The position numbers and the translations under genes are program-made. A DNA stretch of 64,000 bases from Balneolaceae bacterium. GTDB lineage: Bacteria > Bacteroidota > Rhodothermia > Balneolales > Balneolaceae. Shown here one piece after another: positions 1,216 through 13,158 of this stretch. How positions within the stretch are numbered: the stretch's first letter is position 1; each line of letters starts with the position of its first letter. The stretch is taken from positions 558,001 to 622,000 of the forward strand of contig JAXHMK010000010.1 in assembly GCA_034521495.1 (NCBI GenBank), given 5' to 3'. The notes below the pieces were generated by a model. That model was not told where the DNA came from and did no database searches. It saw only the letters and a list, made by a program, of their open reading frames with translations.

Positions 1216-2378
1216 GAGTTTGATAACAGCTCCAATAATTTGTTGCAATCTTCTTTGCGATGTGCAGTTGTTAGTGAGATTCTAAATCTGGACCTGTTTT
1301 CCGGTACTGTTGGAGGGCGAATGGCCGTAACAATCATGCCTGCTGCCTTTAATTCGTCGCTTTTTTTGAGAACTGCTTTATCCTCCCCTTCGATAATTGG
1401 AAGAATATGAGAGGGATTTTCACTTGTCTCAAAACTATTCTCTTTTAGTTTTTGATGAAAAAATTTCGACAATTCGTGTAAATACCTTCGTTCTTTCTCC
1501 ATATCCGGAATCAAATCGAGGGCAGCTTCAATCGAGCCGACTATTGAGGGCGGCGGAGCCGTTGAGTAAATAAAACCACTGCAATAATTGATCAAAGCTT
1601 CAGTAATTATTTTGGATGAAGCTACAAAAGCTCCAAACGATCCTGCAGCTTTACCAAACGTTCCGATTAGCAGATCGATCTCCTTATAGTCTTCACCAAA
1701 ACCCAATCCATTTTCTCCATAAACTCCAAACGCATGTGCATCATCTACATAGAGTTTCGCTCCATACTTCCTGGATAATTGAATAATTTTATCCAATGGC
1801 GCCCGATCTCCATCCATACTAAAAAGTGACTCGGTTACAATCCAAACTTCTGAAGATTTACCATTGGATTTTCGTTTTAAAAAAGTTTCAAGATGATCCA
1901 TGTCATTATGCCTGAACCGATAAAAATCGGCTTTTGATGCCAGGCAACCAGTTAAAATACTGTTGTGGCATAGCTGATCCGTTATGATCACATCATTTTT
2001 ATCCGTTATTGCAGGAAGAATTGTGCTGTTTGCCTGGAACCCGGTACTAAACAAAAGCGCATCATCTTTTTGATAAAGTGAAGCCAGTCTCTCTTCTAAA
2101 TTTCTGTGGATAGCAAGCGTACCTGTTATCAGCCTTGAAGAAGATGAGCCCACACCAAACCGCTCTGCATATTCAATGCTTTTATTCTTCAGGGCGGGAT
2201 GATTAGAGAGATTCAGATAATCATTACTGCAGAAGTTCAGGTACTCTTCTCCATCCATCTTGAGTAAACGGGATGTATAAACCGAATCGATTTTGTTTAG
2301 AGACCTGTAGCGATGCTCTGATTGCCTCTTCTCAAGTTTTTTTTGCAGCTTTTCGTGAGTAGATCCGCTATTCTTCAC
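1212..2378 (-). CDS. bioF: 8-amino-7-oxononanoate synthase
   Basis: PLP enzyme joining pimeloyl-ACP (or -CoA) and alanine to give 8-amino-7-oxononanoate in biotin synthesis. The 388 residues are normal for the family. PLP-enzyme landmarks are present: FCSNDYL at 49-55, STGFQAN at 111-117, VDDAHAFGVYG at 211-221 and the PLP lysine in GTFGKAAGS (Lys243). It starts with GTG at 2378, inside the last codons of the DUF4837 gene, and its stop overlaps the next start, so translational coupling is likely. A 2-amino-3-ketobutyrate CoA ligase is the usual confusion, but bioH and bioC downstream settle it. Confidence 0.92.
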   Translation of the reverse strand: MKNSGSTHEKLQKKLEKRQSEHRYRSLNKIDSVYTSRLLKMDGEEYLNFCSNDYLNLSNHPALKNKSIEYAERFGVGSSSSRLITGTLAIHRNLEERLASLYQKDDALLFSTGFQANSTILPAITDKNDVIITDQLCHNSILTGCLASKADFYRFRHNDMDHLETFLKRKSNGKSSEVWIVTESLFSMDGDRAPLDKIIQLSRKYGAKLYVDDAHAFGVYGENGLGFGEDYKEIDLLIGTFGKAAGSFGAFVASSKIITEALINYCSGFIYSTAPPPSIVGSIEAALDLIPDMEKERRYLHELSKFFHQKLKENSFETSENPSHILPIIEGEDKAVLKKSDELKAAGMIVTAIRPPTVPENRSRFRISLTTAHRKEDCNKLLELLSNS

Positions 2379-3477
2379 GCATCAGGTTTGTTATGGATTC
2401 TGAATCGCTATTCCAGGTTGAATCGGATTCAAACGTACGGCCCATTGTCCGAAATTGCCGAACGAATCTGCGCTTACGTACACTTGGGGCAAATTGTCCA
2501 TACTCGATCATAAAGAGGCGTTCCGTTTTCGGATCATAGTAAGTAAAATTCACAAACGGCCCACCCATAAAATCGTTGGTCATTCTCCAGGTACCAAGTG
2601 TTTCATACCCGATGATACGATCCTCCCGGTTCATTTGATTGGTAATAACCTTTCTTGGACTTCTGTACTCAGTTGTTACGTACGATCCCTCCCTGCTTCC
2701 CTGGATATATTTTTGAAGCAGTGAATCGCGCGTGGCATTTATCCATTCTCTATCAATAAAGCCGATTCCTTCTACATCGTTTTGCCACCACGCCATCATC
2801 CAGCGGTCATTTTCGGGAAGAGACCGTCTAAACACAACTACATTTGAGGTATCTACTGTCTGAATATAATCATGCTGCATTCTCACTTTCCAACCGTGCT
2901 CATTCCAAAGCGAATCAGATATCGCGGTCTGTTCGCCCCGTCTGTAAATTTCATATTCACGGCGCTCAAATTCTCTTTCCATCAAATGACTTACGAGAGA
3001 ATTCTCGGAGTTTCGAATTTTTTGCGATAAGGTAGAATCTGTAGTAGAGGTTAAGATTAACACCCATTGGTCTCGCACCCACTGATCTTTAAGTGGAAAA
3101 GCAAAACTCTCGCCCTCTCGTACCCGTTCTTCAACTTCGTCGCTCAATAGAGCCCGGATCAATCTGCCAACATTATTTTCGGCATCAATGGGAGCAGCAA
3201 GTATAATATTTTTTAAGTTTTGGATATTGTCTAACTCATCATTTGTATTAAATTCACGAAAAGTCAGATCATAGGTAGCTTCAAAGCTTGGAAGTGTTTC
3301 AATGCCCTTACCAAACGTTTCCTCAATAGCCAGTGCCGATTCACTATTCCAATCCGTTGAATCCATTACAACATACACTTCGTCAACTGCGCCAACTGAT
3401 CGTGACCTGTAATCTCCTTCGCAGGCTGAAATGAAAGCAATTCCAATTATCGTTAAAATCAATAAAAACCTATTCAT
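2368..3477 (-). CDS. DUF4837 family lipoprotein
   Basis: A 369-residue protein with a lipoprotein signal: hydrophobic stretch at residues 4-16 and lipobox ISAC with Cys19. It should be anchored in the outer membrane or face the periplasm. The rest matches my memory of DUF4837, a Bacteroidota/Balneolota family without a known function. It has no catalytic motif I can name and is rich in Trp, Arg and acidic residues. Its ATG overlaps the trpA stop (ATGA) and its end overlaps bioF, so it is transcribed with the trp-bio genes, though nothing ties it to either pathway. Confidence 0.7.
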   Translation of the reverse strand: MNRFLLILTIIGIAFISACEGDYRSRSVGAVDEVYVVMDSTDWNSESALAIEETFGKGIETLPSFEATYDLTFREFNTNDELDNIQNLKNIILAAPIDAENNVGRLIRALLSDEVEERVREGESFAFPLKDQWVRDQWVLILTSTTDSTLSQKIRNSENSLVSHLMEREFERREYEIYRRGEQTAISDSLWNEHGWKVRMQHDYIQTVDTSNVVVFRRSLPENDRWMMAWWQNDVEGIGFIDREWINATRDSLLQKYIQGSREGSYVTTEYRSPRKVITNQMNREDRIIGYETLGTWRMTNDFMGGPFVNFTYYDPKTERLFMIEYGQFAPSVRKRRFVRQFRTMGRTFESDSTWNSDSESITNLMREE

Positions 3478-4310
3478 AGTGATCTTTCTTTTTGGGATTC
3501 TGTTTTCCCGTATTTCAATCTTCTAACAAAACTAAAAACGTTATCCTTCCAACCCTCTTCCGGGTATACTTTTTTAATTGTATCAATGAGAGCACTTCCT
3601 ACAATGAAACCATCTACCTCTTTCGATATTATCTGAGCATCCTCATAACTTTTAATTCCAAACCCAACAAGTTTAGGATTCTTTGTGACATTAGTTTTTA
3701 CACGATGGATAAATTTTTCCACCGATTTTGCCACTTCATCACCTTGCCGGGCTCCGGTTACACCGGTAACTGATACACAATAGACAAATCCATTACTGTG
3801 TTGATCTACAACTTGCATTCTTTCATTCGAAGAGTTTGGAGCGACAAGAAATATCAGATTCAAATTGTGTTGTTCGGCCTTTTTGGAAATAATGGATGAT
3901 TCTTCAACCGGAGCATCCGGAATGATCAGCCCGTCCACACCATTTTTCTCAGCCTGTTCACAAAACCGATCCACCCCATATTTTAGAATAGGGTTGATAT
4001 AACCCATCAGAATTAATGGAATTTCGGATGATTTTCGGATTTCACGAACCATCCCAAAAATCTTGTCCATAGTAATACCATTTTTGATGGCGGTGTTGCT
4101 TGCGTATTGAATGGTGGGCCCATCAGCCAGCGGATCACTAAAAGGCATACCCAATTCAATGAGATCGGCGCCATTCTTTTCAAATCCAAGGATTAAATCA
4201 ACTGTTGAATCGAGGTCAGGATACCCGGCCGAGATAAAAAGCGACATTACTTTTTCCGAGTCACCTTTATTTTCAAATAGCGTCTGAATTCGTGTTTTTT
4301 CTTTAATCAT
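3474..4310 (-). CDS. trpA: Tryptophan synthase alpha chain
   Basis: Alpha subunit of tryptophan synthase: cleaves indole-3-glycerol phosphate to indole and glyceraldehyde 3-phosphate and passes indole to TrpB. The 278 residues show the TIM-barrel signature with catalytic Glu52 in LIELGMPFSDP and Asp63 in LADGPTIQ, plus the phosphate-binding GFGIKS segment near the C terminus. It starts 22 bases after trpB and overlaps the DUF4837 start by four bases. Confidence 0.96.
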   Translation of the reverse strand: MIKEKTRIQTLFENKGDSEKVMSLFISAGYPDLDSTVDLILGFEKNGADLIELGMPFSDPLADGPTIQYASNTAIKNGITMDKIFGMVREIRKSSEIPLILMGYINPILKYGVDRFCEQAEKNGVDGLIIPDAPVEESSIISKKAEQHNLNLIFLVAPNSSNERMQVVDQHSNGFVYCVSVTGVTGARQGDEVAKSVEKFIHRVKTNVTKNPKLVGFGIKSYEDAQIISKEVDGFIVGSALIDTIKKVYPEEGWKDNVFSFVRRLKYGKTESQKERSL

Positions 4311-4332: not shown

Positions 4333-5523
4333 TTAATCCGAAAACCACTCAGAAATTGTTCCCATATCTTTGTCACCACGGCCTGAACAGTTAACAACTA
4401 CAATATCATCTTCCTGGGTTACCGGCATTAATGTATCCAGATATGCCAGGGCGTGTGCAGTTTCAATCGCTGGTATAATCCCCTCTTTCTCCGACAAAAG
4501 CTTTACAGCTTCCATTGCATCATTATCGGTCACACCATAGTAATGAACTCGTTTAGTGTCGTGAAGATAGGAATGTTCGGGACCAATTCCGGGATAATCC
4601 AGGCCAGCACTTATGGAATGAGCCAGTTGAATTTGTCCCTCATCACTTTGCAGAAGATAACTGAGTGAACCGTGCAAAACTCCCCGGGTGCCTTTCGTTA
4701 AAGTGGCTGCGGTTTGATCGGTATCTGCTCCAAGACCGGCAGCTTCAATACCTATCATTTTCACATCTTCATCCTCAATAAAGGGATAGAAGAATCCAAT
4801 AGCATTGCTTCCGCCTCCAACACATGCCACGAGATAATTCGGCAATCGCCCTTCCGCTTTTTTAAGCTGATCTTTGGTCTCCTCTCCAATCACCCGATGA
4901 AAATTCCGTGTCATCATCGGGTAAGGATGCGGTCCCACTACCGAGCCGATGATATAAAATGTATCATCAACATTGGTTACCCAATCGCGAATAGCTTCGT
5001 TAGTGGCATCTTTCAACGTCTGAGAACCACTTGTTACTTCTCGAACTTCCGCACCCAAAAGCTCCATACGGTCTACATTCAATTTCTGTCGCTCCATATC
5101 TTCGGCGCCCATGTAGATCACACAATCGAATCCAAATTTGGCACAGGCAGTAGCAGTCGCCACGCCATGTTGACCCGCTCCGGTTTCGGCAATGATTCGG
5201 GTTTTTCCCATTTTCCGGGCAAGCAAGAGCTGTCCGATTGCATTATTTATTTTATGAGCACCGGTATGGCATAGATCCTCTCTTTTAAGATAGATTTTTG
5301 CCTTTCCATAATGTTCAGTCAAGCGGTTTGCGAAAGTTAGTTTAGTCGGCCGCCCAACATATTCTCGAAGAAGATCGTAATATTCCTTCTGGAAAAGCGG
5401 ATCATTTAATGCTTCCTCGTAAGCAACCTCCAACTCCTCAAGTACGGGTATCAATATTTCAGGAACAAACTTCCCGCCGTATTCGCCAAAATATCCTGTT
5501 TTTGTTGGTGCTGTGTATTTCAT
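4333..5523 (-). CDS. trpB: Tryptophan synthase beta chain
   Basis: PLP-dependent beta subunit that condenses indole with serine to tryptophan. It is 396 residues, the usual TrpB1 length. The PLP lysine is Lys91 in [13 protein letters not shown], the phosphate-binding loop is [10 protein letters not shown], and the N terminus [12 protein letters not shown] is typical. It directly precedes trpA, its partner, and follows the four-helix-bundle gene that separates it from trpF. Confidence 0.97.
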
Positions 5524-5544: not shown

Positions 5545-5991
5545 TTATTCGTTATTCGGCTTTTTAAAAATATCAATGTGATAGGGGATTCCATCTTCTT
5601 TGACGGAATTTCCTAAATCTTTTTTAGCTCTCCTTAAATAGTTTATATAGCCATTTATCATTTTAATGCATCTTACAATGTTTTTATTATAAGCCTGAAA
5701 TTCCTCCTTAGAAATATATTTACAATCAAGTGCGGTAATGAGTTGATTTTTTAATTCGTAGGCAGAACCTCTGGCCTGTCTGCAGTACTGAATATTTTCC
5801 TGATAGTGAAATCGACCATATCCTTCTGCAATTTGATCTGTAATTGATCGTGATGATCTAATCATTTGATCTGTAAGTCTGTATAACTCAACTTTTGGGA
5901 AGCTTTTAACTCGTTCAAAAATCTCGTTTCTAATCTCTCTACCGAGTTGCCATACCTTTAGGTCTTCAAATGATCGAATCTCTGATTTCAT
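5545..5991 (-). CDS. Four-helix-bundle protein of the 23S rRNA intervening-sequence (S23/IVP) family
   Basis: A 148-residue, largely helical protein with family landmarks FEDLKVWQ (residues 8-15), a central SRSITDQIAEGYGR and a C-terminal YINYLRRA helix. The family was first seen in 23S rRNA intervening sequences and also occurs as free-standing genes in Bacteroidota; its role is not established. It sits between trpF and trpB with short gaps on both sides and is more AT-rich than its neighbours, which suggests later insertion into the trp operon. The C-terminal 20 residues (DIFKKPNNE end) look like a non-conserved tail. Confidence 0.85.
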   Translation of the reverse strand: MKSEIRSFEDLKVWQLGREIRNEIFERVKSFPKVELYRLTDQMIRSSRSITDQIAEGYGRFHYQENIQYCRQARGSAYELKNQLITALDCKYISKEEFQAYNKNIVRCIKMINGYINYLRRAKKDLGNSVKEDGIPYHIDIFKKPNNE

Positions 5992-6091: not shown

Positions 6092-6742
6092 TCACAAACT
6101 CCTCATCACATCAAAAAACTCTTCAATCTTATCAAAATCCTTCAATCCCGGGGACTCTTCCAATCCGCTGGACAGATCCACTACATCCGGGGATACTTTA
6201 TCGATTGCTTCACTCACATTCTGAGCATTCAATCCGCCCGACAGAAAAAACGATTTTCCCATCGACAGATTTTCTAAAAGCTTCCAATCAAATGTTTTAC
6301 CCGTTCCTCCGTAGAGTCCGTCAATTTTAGTATCAAAAAGAAAATAATCGGCTGAATTTTTATAGACTTCTATGTCTGAAGCGAGTTCATCCGCATTTGT
6401 TTCTGAGGTGATGTGAAACACTTTTATAACCGGAAAATTGATCATATCACAATATCCGGGCGATTCATCCCCATGAAGTTGAACCAGGTCAATTCCTGTT
6501 TGAGTGGCAATATCATTTACATCATCAAGAGCCTGATTCACAAAAACACCTACTTTCTCCGGGCCTTCAATCCAATTGATGATCGCTCCCGCTTTTGCCG
6601 GTTCAATGTATCGCGGACTTTTGTCGTAAAAAATAAATCCAAGGTAATCGGCCAGCGCACCAGCTGCAAAACGAGCATCCTCTAATGTGGTGATCCCACA
6701 AACTTTTACCTTTGTTCTTTTATTAATGCTTTCTGCTGTCAT
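6092..6742 (-). CDS. trpF: Phosphoribosylanthranilate isomerase
   Basis: Converts N-(5-phosphoribosyl)anthranilate to CdRP in tryptophan synthesis. The 216 residues form a TIM barrel with KVCGITTLEDA (catalytic Cys near residue 14), VGVFVNQ, VQLHGDES, the catalytic Asp in LFDTKIDG and the phosphate loop in LSGGLNAQNV and DLSSGLEESPGLKD. A palindromic repeat separates it from trpC upstream. Confidence 0.95.
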   Translation of the reverse strand: MTAESINKRTKVKVCGITTLEDARFAAGALADYLGFIFYDKSPRYIEPAKAGAIINWIEGPEKVGVFVNQALDDVNDIATQTGIDLVQLHGDESPGYCDMINFPVIKVFHITSETNADELASDIEVYKNSADYFLFDTKIDGLYGGTGKTFDWKLLENLSMGKSFFLSGGLNAQNVSEAIDKVSPDVVDLSSGLEESPGLKDFDKIEEFFDVMRSL

Positions 6743-6763: not shown

Positions 6764-6862
6764 TTGAAGCGTCCGAAGGTCCTTCAAGCGTTGCGGTTAA
6801 ATCTTCAACTAAACGCTTCAAGGACTTTCACCCGATTGCTGTCGGGTTACAGACGCTTGAAG
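6764..6862. repeat. Palindromic repeat cluster between trpF and trpC, running into the trpC end
   Basis: Several copies of CTTGAAG / CTTCAAG words in both orientations surround CGTCC or ACGC cores, and a separate hairpin CCCGA-N6-TCGGG lies near 6832-6847. The copies alternate in orientation, so the RNA can fold into tandem hairpins. The right part is translated as the C-terminal tail of TrpC. Confidence 0.6.
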
Positions 6863-7657
6863 GTTTTTCAATTCTTCAAATTCCTCAATAAAACGTTTCA
6901 GACCATCTCCAATATCAGGCTGTCTCATAAAATGTTCACCCACAAGAGCAGAATGAATCTTATGCTCATACAGTTTCATCAAATCCTGTGGTTTGTGAAT
7001 ACCACTTTCCGAAACAGTGACTACATCATCACGCGCCATCTCCAACAGTTCTATTCCCCGATGAAGATCCACTTCAAACTTCTTCAAATCACGATTATTG
7101 ACTCCCAATATTTGGATCTCATTCCAATCTAAACTTTCAACCTCTTCTTTCTCGTAACACTCAACTAACGCCTGAATTCCAAACTCATTTGCGGCGGCAA
7201 GAAGTTCCAACAACTGACTTCCTTCGTACATTGTTACGATCAAAAGTACTGCGTCAGCTCCATAAGCTTTTGCTTCTTTTACTTGATATGGTTCAATCAC
7301 AAAATCTTTGCGCAACAATGGAATAGGAGAAATATCTGATATTTGTTCAAGATATTTGAGCGATCCCTGGAAAAACGGTTCATCGGTCAAAACAGATATT
7401 GCTGAAGCTCCATTTTCGATGTATGCATCGGCTATTTTCAACGGATCAAAATCATCCCGTATCACTCCTTTGGATGGTGATGCCTTCTTCACTTCTGCAA
7501 TAATGGAGACAGAGTCCGATTTCAAAGCACCGGCAAAATCGAGTCTGTTTTTTTCATAACCTTTCAGAGATTCCAGATCCCGAAAGGAGATCTCCCGTTT
7601 TCTTTTTTTGATATCTTCCAGAGTTTGACGGGCTATTTTTTCAAGAATATCTGCCAT
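6818..7657 (-). CDS. trpC: Indole-3-glycerol-phosphate synthase with a repeat-derived tail
   Basis: Closes the indole ring of indole-3-glycerol phosphate from CdRP. Recognisable: IIAEVKKASPSKG (catalytic Lys), LTDEPFFQGS, LLRKDFVIEPYQ, GVNNRDLKKFEVD, VSESGIHKPQDL and LVGEHFMRQPDIG. At 279 residues it is about 15-20 longer than usual; the extra end (QASVTRQQSGESP) is encoded by palindromic repeat DNA, so it is probably not functional. The ~150 bases upstream, to trpD, contain a long hairpin. Confidence 0.95.
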   Translation of the reverse strand: MADILEKIARQTLEDIKKRKREISFRDLESLKGYEKNRLDFAGALKSDSVSIIAEVKKASPSKGVIRDDFDPLKIADAYIENGASAISVLTDEPFFQGSLKYLEQISDISPIPLLRKDFVIEPYQVKEAKAYGADAVLLIVTMYEGSQLLELLAAANEFGIQALVECYEKEEVESLDWNEIQILGVNNRDLKKFEVDLHRGIELLEMARDDVVTVSESGIHKPQDLMKLYEHKIHSALVGEHFMRQPDIGDGLKRFIEEFEELKNLQASVTRQQSGESP

Positions 7658-7693
7658 ACCTATTTAGTGTTTGTAAGAAAACTCATAGTGTCC

Positions 7694-7800
7694 TAAGAAA
7701 ACGTCAAGATCAAGGCGCGCGCAGTCCCAAAAAGCGCAGTGTACTACGTGTACATGAGCAGTTTTGGGGCAAGCGGAACGCAGAGATTGACGTTTTCTTA
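7694..7800. repeat. 107-bp imperfect palindromic element between trpC and trpD
   Basis: Perfect 14-base complementary ends (TAAGAAAACGTCAA at 7694-7707 and its complement at 7787-7800) enclose a longer imperfect palindrome: CCCAAAAA near 7726 faces TTTTGGGG near 7762, and the centre holds GTACTACGTGTAC. The whole element could fold into one long hairpin inside the trp mRNA. It has no coding content and no T-run, so it is not a simple terminator. It resembles a MITE or BIME-type element; only one copy is in the window. Confidence 0.75.
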
Positions 7801-7806
7801 GAGACA

Positions 7807-8844
7807 TTATTTAGCTGAAATCGCTTGAGATTCTTTAATAAACTGGTCCAGTTTCTGCTTGGCTTTACCAGAATCGATACTTTCAACTGCCATCTCCTTC
7901 GCCTCTTCCAAATCATCTGTAATGTTTGAAGCACGGATTGCAAATGTGGCATTCAATTCGGCAATGTCTCGTTGGGCTTTCGTCGATTTTCCACCTAAAA
8001 TATTCAACATAATCTCAGCATTTTTCTTTGCATCTCCGCCCAACAAGGATTCGTGATTGGTCTTTTCATATCCAAGCGATACAGGATCAAACGTTACCGA
8101 ATCGCCGCTGAGATGTGTTTGGAGTTCAAAAATTTCACTTTGAGATGCGGTGCTTACTTCATCCAAACCATCGTGTGCATTTACTGTATAAGCATTTTCG
8201 GTTTTAAGATTGCCCAGAATCTGTATCATCTTTTGAGCTGTCTCTTTATTGAATGCCCCAATCACCTGGCACTTTACATTCGCAGGGTTAACGAGCGGTC
8301 CCAGAATATTGAAAAAGGTTCTCATTTTTAGCGATCGTCGAGCCGGCATCACATGCTTCATGGCCGGATGGAAATTTGGAGCAAACATAAACGCCATTCC
8401 GGTCTTTTCAAACAGTTCTTCTACCTGCTCTTTCTGAAGATTTGGAACCACTCCAAGCGACTCCAGAACATCGTAACTTCCGCTTTTACTCGAAACGCTT
8501 CGATTCCCATGCTTCAAAACAGGAACCCCCGCCCCGGCAACGATAAACATAGCCGTGGTGGAGATATTAAAAGTACCGGATTTATCACCACCGGTTCCGC
8601 AGAGGTCAACGGCATTTGTGGTATCAACTTCTACAGAGACCGCGGCATCACGCATCTCTTTCACAAAAGATGTCAACTCTGTTACCGTCTCCCCCTTCAT
8701 CCTCATTCCCATCAAAAATGCGGCGATCTCCTCGTTGGAAATCTCTCCTTGTAAAATCCAGCGCATTGCGGATTCAGCTTCTTCATCTGAGAGATCTTCG
8801 TGATTAGAAACTTTTTCAAGTATTTCTGTAAATGTTTTACTCAC
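7807..8844 (-). CDS. trpD: Anthranilate phosphoribosyltransferase
   Basis: Transfers phosphoribosyl from PRPP to anthranilate. The 345 residues match the family. The glycine-rich PRPP loop GTGGDKSGTFNIST is at 83-96, KHGNRSVSSKSGS follows near 114-126, and MKHVMPARRSLKMRTFFNILGPL carries the arginine that binds anthranilate. It follows trpG by 15 bases. The short N-terminal helical domain (AMRWILQGEISNEEIAAFLMGMR) is intact. Confidence 0.96.
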   Translation of the reverse strand: MSKTFTEILEKVSNHEDLSDEEAESAMRWILQGEISNEEIAAFLMGMRMKGETVTELTSFVKEMRDAAVSVEVDTTNAVDLCGTGGDKSGTFNISTTAMFIVAGAGVPVLKHGNRSVSSKSGSYDVLESLGVVPNLQKEQVEELFEKTGMAFMFAPNFHPAMKHVMPARRSLKMRTFFNILGPLVNPANVKCQVIGAFNKETAQKMIQILGNLKTENAYTVNAHDGLDEVSTASQSEIFELQTHLSGDSVTFDPVSLGYEKTNHESLLGGDAKKNAEIMLNILGGKSTKAQRDIAELNATFAIRASNITDDLEEAKEMAVESIDSGKAKQKLDQFIKESQAISAK

Positions 8845-8859
8845 AATATGTTAATTTAT

Positions 8860-9444
8860 TTAAACATTGACTTTTTGATAGCTCATCTTCAGCCAGTTTT
8901 TAACAATCCTTGGACCTTCCGTCGTTAAAATACTTTCGGGATGAAACTGAATTCCCTCAACCGGATAGGATTTGTGACGAACTCCCATTATCACTCCGTC
9001 ATCTGCTTTTGACGTTACATCCAGCTCTTTCGGAATTGTATCCGGATCTAACACCAAAGAGTGATAGCGTGTGGCTGTAAATCCATCTTCGATTCCTTTA
9101 AATACTGATTTTCCATCATGAAATATCTCGGAAGTTTTACCATGCATCAATATTGGAGCGTGAATCACTTTTGCACCAAAAACCTGGCCAATCGCCTGGT
9201 GGCCTAAACAAACTCCGAGAACAGGAATTTCAGCTCCCAATTCCTGAATCAACTCCTCAGTAATACCCGCATCTTCAGGACGCCCCGGTCCGGGTGAAAT
9301 CAAAATCTTATCGGGGTTCAATTCCCTCACTTCTTCCACTGTCATCGCGTCATTGCGAATCACTTTGTAATCATCTGTTTCCGTTGCCACAATGTGAACA
9401 AGGTTGTAGGTAAAGGAGTCGTAATTGTCGATTATTAAGATCAT
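8860..9444 (-). CDS. trpG: Anthranilate synthase component II (glutamine amidotransferase)
   Basis: Supplies ammonia from glutamine to TrpE. The 194-residue class I amidotransferase begins MILIIDNYDSFTYNL; that ATG at 9444 is the natural start, although the frame stays open to 9489. Catalytic Cys79 is in GVCLGHQAIG, and the His-Glu pair is in IQFHPESILT. PGPGRPEDAG at 51-60 is the usual oxyanion loop. A GCT-loop palindrome lies just upstream, between it and trpS. It may also serve folate synthesis as PabA; no other copy is in the window. Confidence 0.94.
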   Translation of the reverse strand: MILIIDNYDSFTYNLVHIVATETDDYKVIRNDAMTVEEVRELNPDKILISPGPGRPEDAGITEELIQELGAEIPVLGVCLGHQAIGQVFGAKVIHAPILMHGKTSEIFHDGKSVFKGIEDGFTATRYHSLVLDPDTIPKELDVTSKADDGVIMGVRHKSYPVEGIQFHPESILTTEGPRIVKNWLKMSYQKVNV

Positions 9445-9468
9445 TAGTATTGAGTTGTAAGGTTGTAA

Positions 9469-9546
9469 GCCGGACAGCTTGTCCGGCACCTCAAATCTTC
9501 ATTTTATGCAATAATTTGGTTTATCGGTAACGGACAAGCTGTCCGT
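9469..9546. repeat. Pair of three-base-loop palindromes between trpG and trpS
   Basis: GCCGGACA-GCT-TGTCCGGC at 9469-9487 and ACGGACA-AGC-TGTCCGT at 9530-9546 share the core GGACA and are in opposite orientation (the loop reads GCT on one strand and AGC on the other). They belong to the dispersed palindrome family also seen near 10742, 37930, 54873 and 55500. Confidence 0.8.
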
Positions 9547-9555
9547 TGTACAATA

Positions 9556-10542
9556 TTAAAAACTTCGATACAGCCCGGTAACAGAACGAATCGGCTCCAT
9601 CACGCTTTCGGCTCGTTCGCGGGCTCTTTGGCCGCCTTCTTTCAGTACGTCGTGAACGTAATCCATATCCTTTTCTAACTCTTTTCGTTTTTCGCGAGCT
9701 TCAGCAAAGTAATCTGAGATCATGGCTAATAGTTCCTTTTTAGCGTGGCCATAACCATATCCACCCGCTCTATATTTCTCAGCAATCTCATTCTTTTGAT
9801 CTTCATCAGCAAAGAGTTTGATTAATGCAAAAACGTTGCAAGTCTCTGGATCTTTTGGATCTTCGAGCGGTGTTGAATCGGTTTGAATGGACATCACTCT
9901 TTTTTTAAGTGATTTTCCTTCATCAAAAATCTGGATAGTATTATTATATGATTTACTCATTTTTTGTCCGTCGATACCGGGAACAACCGCAACACTTTTA
10001 ACAATATACTCTTCTGGAATTTTTAGAAGTTCTTCATCATACGCCCGGTTTAGCTTCCCGGCAAGATCCCGACAGATTTCAATATTCTGCTTTTGATCTT
10101 CCCCAACCGGAACTACATCAGAGTGATATATCAAAATATCAGCAGCCTGTAAAATAGGATAACTGAACAATCCAATATTCGGATTGAGTCCCTGGGCAAC
10201 TTTATCCTTGTATGAAACTCCCTTCTCCATGAGGGAAACCGGAGTTACCGTTCCTAAAATCCAGGCCAATTCTGTTGTTTGAGGCACATCCGACTGAGCA
10301 AAAAACGTACATTTATTTGGATCGAGCCCCAGTGCGAGGTAATCAAGAACAACATCCAGCGTATATTCTTTGAGCTTTTCACCGTTGTTGATGGATGTTA
10401 GTGTATGATAGTTTGCAAGAAAATAGAAGGCGTCTCCCTCCTCCTGCATTTGTATATGCTGACGCATTGCTCCAAAATAGTTGCCAATATGGAGTTTCCC
10501 GGAAGGTTGAATGCCTGATAAGATTGTTTTCTTTTCGCTCAT
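9556..10542 (-). CDS. trpS: Tryptophanyl-tRNA synthetase
   Basis: Class I synthetase charging tRNA-Trp. The 328 residues carry the HIGH-type motif SGKLHIGNYFGAM at 14-26 and KMSKS in GQKMSKSYNN near 195. It lies within the trp operon between trpE and trpG, so the attenuator upstream of trpE would lower charging capacity and synthesis together. No T-box was seen before it. Confidence 0.97.
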   Translation of the reverse strand: MSEKKTILSGIQPSGKLHIGNYFGAMRQHIQMQEEGDAFYFLANYHTLTSINNGEKLKEYTLDVVLDYLALGLDPNKCTFFAQSDVPQTTELAWILGTVTPVSLMEKGVSYKDKVAQGLNPNIGLFSYPILQAADILIYHSDVVPVGEDQKQNIEICRDLAGKLNRAYDEELLKIPEEYIVKSVAVVPGIDGQKMSKSYNNTIQIFDEGKSLKKRVMSIQTDSTPLEDPKDPETCNVFALIKLFADEDQKNEIAEKYRAGGYGYGHAKKELLAMISDYFAEAREKRKELEKDMDYVHDVLKEGGQRARERAESVMEPIRSVTGLYRSF

Positions 10543-10699
10543 TTTTTGATCGTGGTACTTCGTTTGTTTCTGAAATTTTAAGTCAAAATATCATTCTGAG
10601 GGTCATCCCCCTCGAATCAACGTCATGTTTAGATTTCTGATTCCTCCTTCAAAGGTGGGAAGTTCTGCATAAGCTTGTACCTCGAAAGAATCCGCTTAC

Positions 10700-10760
10700 A
10701 GGTTGCAAACTTGCGCGAGTAATTATATTGTCATATAGACACAAGCGGGACGCTTGCGCC
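10700..10760. repeat. Three-base-loop palindrome CAAGCG-GGA-CGCTTG between trpS and trpE
   Basis: A perfect palindrome CAAGCG-GGA-CGCTTG at 10742-10756, followed by CGCCA as in the copies at 37930 and 55545. A degenerate second unit (AGGTTGCAAACTTGCGCGAG, near 10702-10721) resembles the CAAGTTT-C-AAACTTG unit near 55458. The 236-base trpS-trpE gap has nothing else recognisable. Confidence 0.7.
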
Positions 10761-10778
10761 AGCCGTAAATTAAATTTT

Positions 10779-12245
10779 CTATGTTGTGATTTCGAGTGCT
10801 ACGCTGAGTGCTTCAACCAACGCACCCGCTTTGTTTTTGGTTTCTTCGAACTCTTTTTGAGGATCGCTGTCAGCCACAATTCCTGCCCCGGCCTGGATGT
10901 ACACGCGATCTCCGGTCACCAGCATGGTTCGGATTGCGATGCATGTGTCCATATTGCCTGAGAAATCGAAGTAACCAACCGCACCCGCGTATGGACCTCG
11001 TTTCGTCGGTTCAAGCTCGTCGATGATCTCCATGGCTCGAATTTTTGGTGCACCGCTGACTGTTCCGGCCGGGAAACACTGCATCAATGCATCAACTGAA
11101 TTTTTGTCCTCAGCGATCTCCCCGACTACATCCGACACGATGTGCATCACATGAGAAAACCGCTCAATACTTTGATTTCTTTCCAGATGTACGGTACCGG
11201 ATTTTGATACCCGTGACAGATCATTTCGTCCTAAATCAACAAGCATAATGTGCTCCGCGATCTCTTTGGGATCTTTTTTGAGATCTTCCTCGAGTGCCAA
11301 ATCCTCTTCGTGGGTTTTCCCTCGCGGACGAGTTCCGGCAATAGGGAGTAATCTCACTTCAGTATCGGTCACCCGAACCAATACTTCCGGTGAAGAACCG
11401 ACAAGTGAAAAGCCTTCAAAATCTAAATAGAACAAATATGGTGACGGATTCACCATCCGAAGCGCGCGGTAAAGCGTAAAACTGTCGCCCTCAAACGGAA
11501 CCTCAAACCGCTGGGACAGAACCACCTGGAAAATATCTCCTTCGTAAATATAATCTTTGCCTTTCTCCACCATGGAGTGAAATTTATCCTGCTCCATATT
11601 ACTTGAAAGATGTTCGGCATCCAGATGAAAAGATCCGCCCTGTTTAACCTGACGAACAGCTGTTTTTTCCATCCGATCGAGGGATTCGACTGCTGAATTA
11701 TACGCTTGTCTCAAATCAGTTTCGTCATCAACAAAAACGGTTTTCATCAACACAATCTGCTGTTTGACGTGATCGAAAGCGTAGACCTCATCATAAAAAG
11801 ACCAGATTGCCTCGGGTGTATGGAGGTCATCATCAGGAACATCCGGAAGATATTCTACATCCCGAACTGTATCGTACGAAGAAAAACCAACCGCACCCCC
11901 CGTCAACCGTGGAAGCTCAGGTAATTTTGGTTCTGAATGTTGATGAATAAGCCGGTCCAGAGCATCAAAGTAAGACTCATCGAGGAGAGTCGCTTCACCA
12001 TTAGAACCGGTCAGATTTACGCCCTCCTGATCAACTTTTAAAACCTGATATGGATTGCAACCAATAAAAGAATAACGAGCAAGGTTTTCGCCACCCTCAA
12101 CGGATTCTAACAAAAACGGATAGCTGGCTCCCTCACGGATAGAGAGAAAGAGCGAGACCGGAGTAAGAATATCGGCCAGCATCCTCCTGGAGACCGGAAT
12201 TGCCGTATAATTTTTTGCAAGTTTTGAAAATGTTTCGAATGTCAT
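10779..12245 (-). CDS. trpE: Anthranilate synthase component I
   Basis: Chorismate-utilising subunit that makes anthranilate with TrpG. Starting at ATG 12245 it has 488 residues; the frame extends three codons to a TTG that lies almost in the attenuator T-run and is less likely. Family motifs are present: [27 protein letters not shown] with the LLES segment used for Trp feedback binding, [64 protein letters not shown] and [17 protein letters not shown]. It is the first structural gene after trpL. Confidence 0.96.
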
Positions 12246-12258
12246 AAATACCAAAAAT

Positions 12259-12292
12259 AAAAAAACCCACTCCAGAAAACTGCAGTGGGTTT
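12259..12292 (-). terminator. trp attenuator terminator
   Basis: On the minus strand AAACCCACT (12292-12284) pairs perfectly with AGTGGGTTT (12271-12263), followed by a T-run to 12259. It lies 14 bases before the trpE start. Its 5' arm can instead pair with leader bases 12336-12330 (GCAGTGG with CCACTGC at 12288-12282), which would block the terminator. This is the arrangement of a ribosome-mediated attenuator. Confidence 0.9.
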
Positions 12293-12318
12293 GAAAATCG
12301 TTTTAAAAATAGTTCAGA

Positions 12319-12390
12319 TCATAGTGATTCCACTGCCAAATATGTTTGACCGTGCCACCACCAATTGTTATGTGTTAAACTATTTTTCAT
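12319..12390 (-). CDS. trpL: trp operon leader peptide with three consecutive Trp codons
   Basis: A 23-codon reading frame too short for normal gene calling. It runs from ATG at 12390 to TGA at 12319 and contains NNWWWHG: TGG TGG TGG at 12363-12355. Trp is about 1% of residues in ordinary proteins, so a run of three directly ahead of a terminator and trpE is strong evidence for a leader peptide. A ribosome stalled at these codons would leave GCAGTGG (12336-12330) free to pair with the terminator's 5' arm and allow trpE-trpA-bio transcription; with ample Trp-tRNA the ribosome would cover it and the terminator would form. No good Shine-Dalgarno is seen, as usual in this phylum. Confidence 0.9.
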   Translation of the reverse strand: MKNSLTHNNWWWHGQTYLAVESL

Positions 12391-12450
12391 GATGAGGGAA
12401 ACTATCAGATCGAAATTTTAAATGCAACTGTTGTGGCAAATTTTTAAAAT

Positions 12451-13158
12451 TTATTTGCGGAACCAGGCCGGATTTCTTTCAATGAATTTTTGAATGAGTG
12501 ACCTGACAAAAAAATCCTGCTTTTTCTTTAGGTACCACCATCCATTCAAACAAATTATTAGTGCTCCAGCTGCATTCACAATCATATCCCACATCGTATC
12601 GGTTAACCCGGATGCATCCCCGAACATCTCTTTCTGCATATTGAGTCCGAGAAACTGATCCATAGCAAATTCAAAGATTTCCCAGACTGTGCCGATTGAT
12701 ACAGCAAACATAAATGCAAAAAGAGCAATAAATGCCGAACTCATTTGCAGTTCAACTTTCTTGCTTTCATTCAATATATATACCAACAAAAATCCCACGA
12801 TACCCATCATGAGGCCGGCAGTTGCATGGAGTGCCATATCCCACCACCAGATACGACGATAAAATTCCTGAATCTCACCAAGATAGAGTGCAGCAAACAC
12901 AAAAAGTACTGCCATAAAATGGAATTCGGCCGGGAGTTCCAGATCCATTTTATTTTTAAATAGAAATGGAGCAAAAAGGCTAAACAGAATTAATGTTACC
13001 AGGAAAAGAGAAAGCCACTGTTGTTCATATAAAAGATAAGCCCATTCTACCGTTAAAATGACAAGTAATATCCGATTAAAGAAATTGTGAATTTGATGTT
13101 CGCTTCTAAAGGCTTTTTGTGATTTCGCGGTATTTTTTTCCTCAGGTTTTTGGCTCAT
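12451..13158 (-). CDS. YjdF/DUF2238 (VanZ-like) integral membrane protein
   Basis: A 235-residue protein with about six membrane segments. The family signature is present: WWWDMALHATAGLMMGIVGF in the middle, then IGTVWEIFEFAMDQFLG and DTMWDMIVNAAGALI near the C terminus; the His, Glu and Asp residues in these segments are the conserved ones. The function is unknown. It lies upstream of trpL with its own reading frame ending 60 bases before the leader, so it is probably a separate unit. Confidence 0.75.
   Translation of the reverse strand: MSQKPEEKNTAKSQKAFRSEHQIHNFFNRILLVILTVEWAYLLYEQQWLSLFLVTLILFSLFAPFLFKNKMDLELPAEFHFMAVLFVFAALYLGEIQEFYRRIWWWDMALHATAGLMMGIVGFLLVYILNESKKVELQMSSAFIALFAFMFAVSIGTVWEIFEFAMDQFLGLNMQKEMFGDASGLTDTMWDMIVNAAGALIICLNGWWYLKKKQDFFVRSLIQKFIERNPAWFRK

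Follow-up and report, generated by a model that had tools for sequence, protein, structure and literature searches.

The Trp_leader RNA family (Rfam RF00513) has been described in Proteobacteria. Within the phylum Bacteroidota, a Trp-codon leader peptide RNA is represented by Bacteroid-trp (RF01692), whose Rfam description is that of a Bacteroidete tryptophan peptide leader and which is included in a table of PMC2864571, and clues for leader-peptide attenuation before amino-acid operons are given for another member of this phylum, Flavobacterium psychrophilum, in a section of PMC9723704 that names no trp element of the type considered here. In the alphaproteobacterium Sinorhizobium meliloti, the trpL leader ORF, encoding a peptide of 14 residues, is located at the 5′ end of its transcript according to a passage in PMC7298713. 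Among the papers listed in a literature search, with most subscription journals outside its scope, none was on trp attenuation in Balneolaceae.

The locus compared here with these systems lies upstream of trpE in a 64,000-nt stretch of contig JAXHMK010000010.1 (forward-strand positions 558,001–622,000; "the window") from a Balneolaceae genome denoted G000. It shares with RF00513 the four-segment logic and aligned with this model end to end, Trp codons being placed on Trp codons and terminator on terminator, at 33.5 bits (E 1.8e-5 with a 221-base query), which is below the gathering score of 41. Sub-threshold RF00513 matches at E ≤ 0.01 were present in 98 of 296 phylum genomes, none of them above the cut-off, and at least seven (G000, G044, G050, G054, G089, G225 and G314) were positioned just upstream of trpE. 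The match was rejected as a proof of homology, because such matches are common below the threshold and most of the places listed were not near the TrpE positions at hand; the requirement for pairing with UGG codons may account for the resemblance. Unlike RF00513, the present element has its predicted promoter directly next to the start codon, and there is support for a proximal-distal helix. The RF01692 model, which has the phylum and the Trp-codon leader peptide in common with the present element, scored 20.6 bits against a cut-off of 49. In G000 it produced only two matches at E ≤ 10 (E 3.7 and 6.4), neither at the trp leader, and the 15 phylum genomes (of 198) where it scored above the cut-off all belong to family f26; in those of its matches that were judged by eye, the -7 box stood further from the ATG than here. 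Compared to the S. meliloti trpL, the present leader is longer (23 codons), and its position at the transcript 5′ end is predicted from the promoter.

At gathering cut-offs, no Rfam family was matched within the 64-kb window, and a T-box was found neither there nor among 24 leader matches taken up to E = 10. These results bear on the possibility that the leader is controlled by an RNA-binding protein or directly by tRNA (TRAP-like or T-box) and not by a translating ribosome: such systems, too, are built around a leader that can form either a terminator or an antiterminator helix, but what is conserved here is a reading frame whose Trp codons keep a set distance from segment 2, and together with the Rfam results this makes such control very improbable. 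The preferred reading, held with high confidence on comparative grounds, is a ribosome-mediated transcription attenuator predicted to sense charged tRNA-Trp. Its mechanism is textbook, the distinctive points being a probable leaderless start and an extra helix at the family level. The element was missed by both related Rfam models at their cut-offs, and the alignment of family leaders used below (A2) is ready for building a new family model.

Leader, promoter and predicted switch upstream of trpE

All features of the site are on the minus strand. The leader peptide ORF (12319–12390) consists of 23 codons plus stop, from ATG to TGA, with MKNSLTHNNWWWHGQTYLAVESL as the product, and includes the regulatory codons TGG TGG TGG (12355–12363), seen in the sequence and aligned in A2; such a tandem-codon ORF upstream of a trp operon is expected of a trp-type attenuator. 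Between the ORF and the first structural gene, as expected for an attenuator, an intrinsic terminator (segment 3:4, 12259–12292) was recognized from the RNA fold and a 51-leader alignment. Its stem pairs 12292–12284 with 12271–12263 (9 bp), followed by three inner pairs (12282–12280 with 12275–12273), and the last bases of the 3′ arm are shared with a run of seven T (12265–12259), 13 nt after which the trpE ATG (12245) is located. The terminator 5′ arm, segment 3 (12282–12290), shares 12288–12282 with an antiterminator, in which these bases pair with segment 2 (GCAGTGG, 12330–12336) over 7 bp without a mismatch; this pairing was kept across 51 sequences and is exclusive with the terminator, again as in attenuators. 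According to the RNA fold, the 1:2 (pause or anti-antiterminator) helix spans 12322–12363, with 12363–12357 paired to 12328–12322, 12354–12352 to 12334–12332 and 12350–12345 to 12340–12335. The leader RNA folded at -42.5 kcal/mol, whereas shuffled sequences averaged -24.0 (z -5.35) and none of 200 reached an energy as low. The leader ORF, the three Trp codons, the terminator and the 7-base alternative pairing had been proposed by an earlier sequence-only reading, and all four were re-found on this strand at the coordinates that it had given. A generic consensus terminator scan did not include the trp leader terminator in its list, probably owing to the internal mismatch in the stem.

Upstream of the leader ATG, the sequence conforms to a predicted sigma-A promoter of the TTG-N20-TAnnTT form, with the TTG at -33 (12425–12427) and a -7 box, TAGTTTCC (TAnnTTTG-type, 12397–12404), which ends 6 nt before the ATG and places the predicted +1 at about 12392. 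The box pair was present in 94 of 96 leaders (64 from the family and 32 from the class outside it), with a spacer of exactly 20 in 82 of the 94 and a gap of 4–8 nt to the leader start in 91. Boxes of the TTG-N19–23-TAnnTT type scoring at least 6.5 and lying 3–10 nt before the start were found in 90 of the 96 leaders, compared to a mean of 8.2 and a maximum of 18 of 96 in 200 shuffled sets with the same gap of 3–10 nt allowed. Promoter placement blind to the frame likewise located a promoter in 90 leaders, 86 of which had an ATG within 16 nt of it, and 83 of these 86 (57/60 in the family and 26/26 in the class) had the first ATG after the promoter in the frame of the Trp run, all leaders having been pre-selected for some in-frame start; the drop-outs among the 96 were six without a promoter by the pattern and four without an ATG within 16 nt. 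The same promoter-to-start arrangement occurred in none of the 63 long ORFs of the window, among which the trp leader is too short to count. According to a part of PMC9723704, the Flavobacterium sigma-A box covers positions -12 to -5, counted from the start site, so that a box-to-ATG gap of 4–8 nt would leave a 5′ untranslated leader of 0–4 nt, and of 2 nt in the window. Judged by the promoter position, the trp leader ORF is probably leaderless.

Sequence comparison established the ORF with its Trp codons, both mutually exclusive helices, the geometry and the position of the promoter. The switch itself would operate as follows. RNA polymerase would start at, or a few bases before, the leader ATG, the actual start site being a prediction, and a ribosome would follow on the leader ORF. 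At plentiful charged tRNA-Trp, the ribosome would pass the three Trp codons, reach the stop codon and cover segment 2 (12336–12330), after which segment 3 would pair with segment 4 and transcription would stop in the T run before trpE. When tRNA-Trp is uncharged, we infer that the ribosome would stall on the Trp codons, leaving segment 2 free to capture segment 3 (12288–12282); with this 2:3 pairing the terminator would not form and the trpE-trpS-trpG-D-C-F-(IVP)-B-A unit would be transcribed. In case of no ribosome on the leader, segment 2 would be occupied by the 1:2 helix, closed in the family by a long-range helix, and termination would be the default.

The geometry was examined with an assumed ribosome footprint from -15 to +16 relative to the P-site. 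In 60 of 64 family leaders and 26 of 32 leaders from the class outside the family, segment 2 stayed free of a ribosome placed at the first Trp codon, and a ribosome on the stop codon covered at least half of segment 2 in 62/64 and 20/32, respectively. The window's leader and the family show the classical spacing, which loosens in the class outside; there, segment 2 may have another location or may have been wrongly assigned in the duplex search.

Conservation of the leader and its helices among relatives

TrpE was found in 55 of the 58 family genomes searched, and one partial protein (G030) was left out of the leader count. A leader with at least two Trp codons (WW, WWW or WxW) and a terminator preceded trpE in 48 of the 54 Balneolaceae genomes assessed. 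With named loci included, 71 leaders were extracted, of which 64 were distinct; one more locus, L039, yielded none, its contig beginning inside trpE. The nearest named TrpE, at 94%, was that of Rhodohalobacter sulfatireducens, whose leader DNA is identical to that of G044, a genome listed under the same genus (L032 duplicates L003). A draw of 117 genomes at the level of the class, named Rhodothermia in GTDB, contained 69 from outside the family, 68 of them with TrpE, and in the 40 fetched from these 68 the leader with terminator was present 32 times (9/9 at the order level and 23/31 beyond the order). Among 20 further Bacteroidota genomes picked across families, 11 had a Trp leader with terminator before trpE; by the same criteria it was missing in 8 of the 40 class genomes and 9 of these 20. 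The opposite-strand control gave 0/40 and 0/20, and 20 dinucleotide-shuffled sets averaged 0.1/40, with no set above 1, and 0/20. These counts cover neither the family loci L168–L174 and the RF00513 loci L138–L167 nor 28 of the 68 class genomes with TrpE. Attenuation with a leader peptide had been called seldom described in this phylum by the sequence-only reading, which was overstated in view of RF01692, of the part of PMC9723704 quoted above and of the leaders in 11 of these 20 genomes. Outside the phylum, two Deltaproteobacteria MAGs (L066 and L068) also have a candidate leader ORF, containing EWWWAYHIDRDLCAPFVGY or a near variant, upstream of trpE.

The six family genomes without a Trp leader all belonged to a single genus, g5, and made up all six of its genomes (L125–L129 and L131, with the named loci L052, L054 and L056–L059). 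They retained the promoter and the terminator and had lost the Trp-codon leader, so that the terminator can outlive the leader. Such a state, and the position of an intergenic terminator downstream of a same-strand gene (12451–13158), would also suit a plain terminator of this upstream gene or a constitutive attenuator with incidental Trp codons; against this, a predicted promoter separates the leader from the upstream gene, 48/54 family and 32/40 class genomes conserve the antiterminator along with the Trp codons and their frame, and a plain terminator would need no segment 2, so that this explanation is highly unlikely. Attenuation by a translating ribosome, as the earlier reading had proposed, is upheld by the same comparison, which it had itself named as the place to look for relatives devoid of the Trp codons or the stems: the codons and the two exclusive stems are kept in those 48 genomes and the stems covary. 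By these comparative data, a chance origin of the arrangement is excluded.

The g5 leader itself is conserved and apparently non-coding, with a hairpin of the AAYCU-CYAA-RGRUU form and a closing helix with two-sided changes at two pairs. It is possible that this leader acts as a replacement regulator; a check for a replacement riboswitch, on six sequences only, returned a weak covariation term of -0.77. A search for TGGTGGTGG in the six g5 genomes resulted in counts mostly near those of the reversed-pattern control. In another genus, g21 (L136 and L137), a short leader ending in WWR-stop was noticed, the likely antiterminator of which, by eye, pairs with the terminator loop and 3′ arm and not with the 5′ arm.

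Helix conservation was followed in A2, comprising 51 of the 64 distinct family leaders after exclusion of seven that were close to others and the six most divergent sequences (L060, L061 and L134–L137). Pairing held in 96.7% of cells for the terminator, where 5 of 10 pairs changed on both sides (66 cells vs 23.1 in shuffles), and in 99.4% for the antiterminator, where 2 of 7 pairs did so (12 cells vs 3.8). The strand common to both covaried with either partner, column 123 changing together with column 65 and with column 141. Slid controls had 31.6–59.7% of cells paired for the terminator and 22.8–82.3% for the antiterminator. The number of cells with two-sided changes was above the shuffles for both helices (0/500 as high in each case), while the number of pairs with such changes was not (160/500 and 321/500 as high for the terminator and the antiterminator, respectively). 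In swap tests on whole segments, which retained the divergent leaders, neither 3:4 nor 2:3 partners from other family genomes were as stable in any of 4000 swaps (n = 64), and the same held for the class outside the family (n = 32); with reduced family representatives (n = 17), the result was 0/4000 for 3:4 and a modest 5/4000 for 2:3.

The 1:2 helix was variable, with 67.7% of cells paired in the 51 leaders and two-sided changes at 9 of 16 pairs. The TGG codons are a part of this helix in the window's fold, and the conserved TGGTGGTGG might accordingly have been retained as an RNA pairing element and not as codons. However, the start and the frame are conserved, the alignment gaps from the ATG to the Trp run are of 3 or 6 nt, the WCW and WRW leader variants keep two in-frame Trp codons, and the helix itself is paired in no more than 67.7% of cells; retention for pairing was, hence, given very little credence, and conservation of the Trp codons as codons to be translated is preferred.

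The long-range helix is formed in the RNA fold by a proximal arm in leader codons 2–5 (12376–12387, minus strand) and a distal arm directly after the leader stop codon (12305–12316, minus strand), both arms being also supported by partner swaps. In the family (n = 62), the own arm gave -9.12 kcal/mol compared to -6.45 with an arm from another genome, and none of 4000 swaps was as stable; the same was true for a reduced set (n = 16, 0/4000), and dinucleotide-shuffled partners were as stable in 0 of 50 cases in each family set. A separate run with 59 family leaders, which skipped five of the 64 with segment 2 or 3 not matched by the search patterns, agreed with this (0/5000 permutations as stable). 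Outside the family the helix surpassed the swaps (0/4000) and barely the dinucleotide shuffles (2/50 as stable). The comparisons thus support it as a family-level feature, with arms that shift in position from one sequence to the next. It may serve for default termination in the absence of translation, for blocking a second ribosome, or for both. In enteric trp leaders, a comparable proximal-distal pairing limits leader translation.

The trp operon downstream of the leader

The genes following the leader are all on the minus strand. The first is trpE (10779–12245), also listed as an ORF from an upstream TTG at 12254; the nearest TrpE relatives (90–94%) align from residue 1 of the ATG form. It is followed by trpS for tryptophanyl-tRNA synthetase (9556–10542; PF00579, class I W and Y, the Trp type being assigned from its place), trpG (8860–9489; PF00117), trpD (7807–8844; PF00591 and PF02885), trpC (6818–7657; PF00218), trpF (6092–6742; PF00697) and a gene for a four-helix-bundle protein of the 23S_rRNA_IVP type inserted in the operon (5545–5991; PF05635). 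Two further ORFs at 4333–5523 and 3474–4310, named from their sequences, we take to be trpB and trpA. Next come a DUF4837 lipoprotein gene (2368–3477), which overlaps trpA, and a class I/II aminotransferase gene (1212–2378; PF00155), presumably bioF-like, which overlaps the DUF4837 gene. The last ORF (535–1248) had no Pfam match and continues the chain of overlaps from trpA through the DUF4837 and bioF-like genes.

In 29 of 30 named loci (L032–L061) trpS comes after trpE, the contig ending in L060, and in L053 the trpE, trpS and trpG matches are only 2 and 4 nt apart. The 160 nt preceding the downstream genes contained no leader-type promoter, and the operon gaps no strong terminator; a -12.0 hairpin with a weak tail was seen in the 236-nt gap between trpE and trpS. 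As far as gene order can tell, trpS is very likely a part of the regulated unit, and co-transcription of the downstream genes is likely. Control by the leader had earlier been extended to trpS, the four-helix-bundle gene, the lipoprotein gene and biotin genes: the inclusion of trpS is strengthened by its place in those 29 loci, the four-helix-bundle gene looks inserted, and the lipoprotein and biotin-type genes, joined by overlapping ends, may be under Trp control.

The trpE-trpS gap (10543–10778, 236 nt) carries a GAGGGGGATGACCCTC hairpin resembling a dispersed intergenic repeat, and many relatives have shorter gaps. The trpD-trpC gap (7658–7806) is filled with a palindromic MITE-like repeat of about 150 bp that recurs in the own genome (19 matches, of which 11, this copy among them, are nearly full-length); in the relative L032 the trpD and trpC matches are separated by only 11 nt. 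A distant 23S_rRNA_IVP homologue (31–37%) is located between trpS and trpG on the opposite strand in L032, L033, L035 and L037, which suggests repeated insertion of this ORF into the trp operon.

Cys-type attenuators and a possible common leader design

In 29 of 39 family genomes, model R1, built from A2, had a single strong match (E 7e-28 to 1.7e-11), although many of the matched sequences belong to the model itself and match by construction; the remaining ten genomes, g5 and g21 among them, had weaker matches or none. Eight second-tier matches were fetched, and three of them proved to be attenuators with Cys leaders. The other five (L251–L255) were rejected as attenuators, looking by eye like ordinary gene-end terminators.

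One of the Cys-type elements is a second attenuator in the own genome, on another contig (L249 182–318; G000:C9:225831–225967). Its leader, MFFNISCCCCFAEKRCDL, has four tandem Cys codons, and the element carries GGTAGTGGG, CCCGCTGCC and AAGTGGGTTTTTTT upstream of a cysH-like gene, which, from motifs in its translation, we take to be cysH. A CCACTGCC-type stretch just before the leader ATG could, by eye, pair with segment 2. An exact pattern of segment 2, the terminator 5′ arm, the 3′ arm and the T run, applied to G000 and 16 relatives, matched twice in G000, at the trp site and at the Cys leader, and its reversed control matched in none of the 17 genomes; among the 15 matches listed, L268 has the look of a tRNA gene with a terminator behind it, and L269 was left unassigned. 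Corresponding Cys-run leaders before cysH-like orthologues were found in G044 and G019 (L275 and L276). A cysH-like match, mostly a distant one, was present in 30 other family genomes, and in a scan of all 30 loci these two were the ones with such a leader. Leader ORFs rich in Cys and Met with the same type of terminator were seen in G029 and G035 (L250 183–356 and L256 168–350 among the loci) before a sulfurtransferase-like gene, presumably of the rhodanese type, and similar ORFs in G338 and G012, the loci of the four genomes being L256, L250, L270 and L287. Leader peptides with Cys codons have been reported for Actinobacteria in a part of PMC1262725 and, before cysS, for Rhodobacterales in a part of PMC8632094.

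Tentatively, and with more doubt than confidence, a common design of the class different from the enteric one may be proposed. The leader ORF would sit at the mRNA 5′ end (0–4 nt, no ribosome binding site); in Balneolaceae, the covarying helix between the start and the post-stop region would seal the ORF after the first ribosome, making the leader a single-pass sensor; and the module of segments 2, 3 and 4 would have been refitted with Cys codons before cysH and with Cys/Met codons before the sulfurtransferase gene.

Leaderless mRNAs have been reported as few in Bacteroidota: they make up 5.5% in F. psychrophilum according to a part of PMC9723704, and 5′ UTRs under 10 nt account for about 3.7% in B. 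thetaiotaomicron (PMC7366714). If truly leaderless, the trp leader would provide a natural system for ribosome/RNA polymerase coupling at 5′-end initiation without a ribosome binding site. Within this part of Bacteroidota, trp attenuation is widespread, and its distribution makes it probably old.
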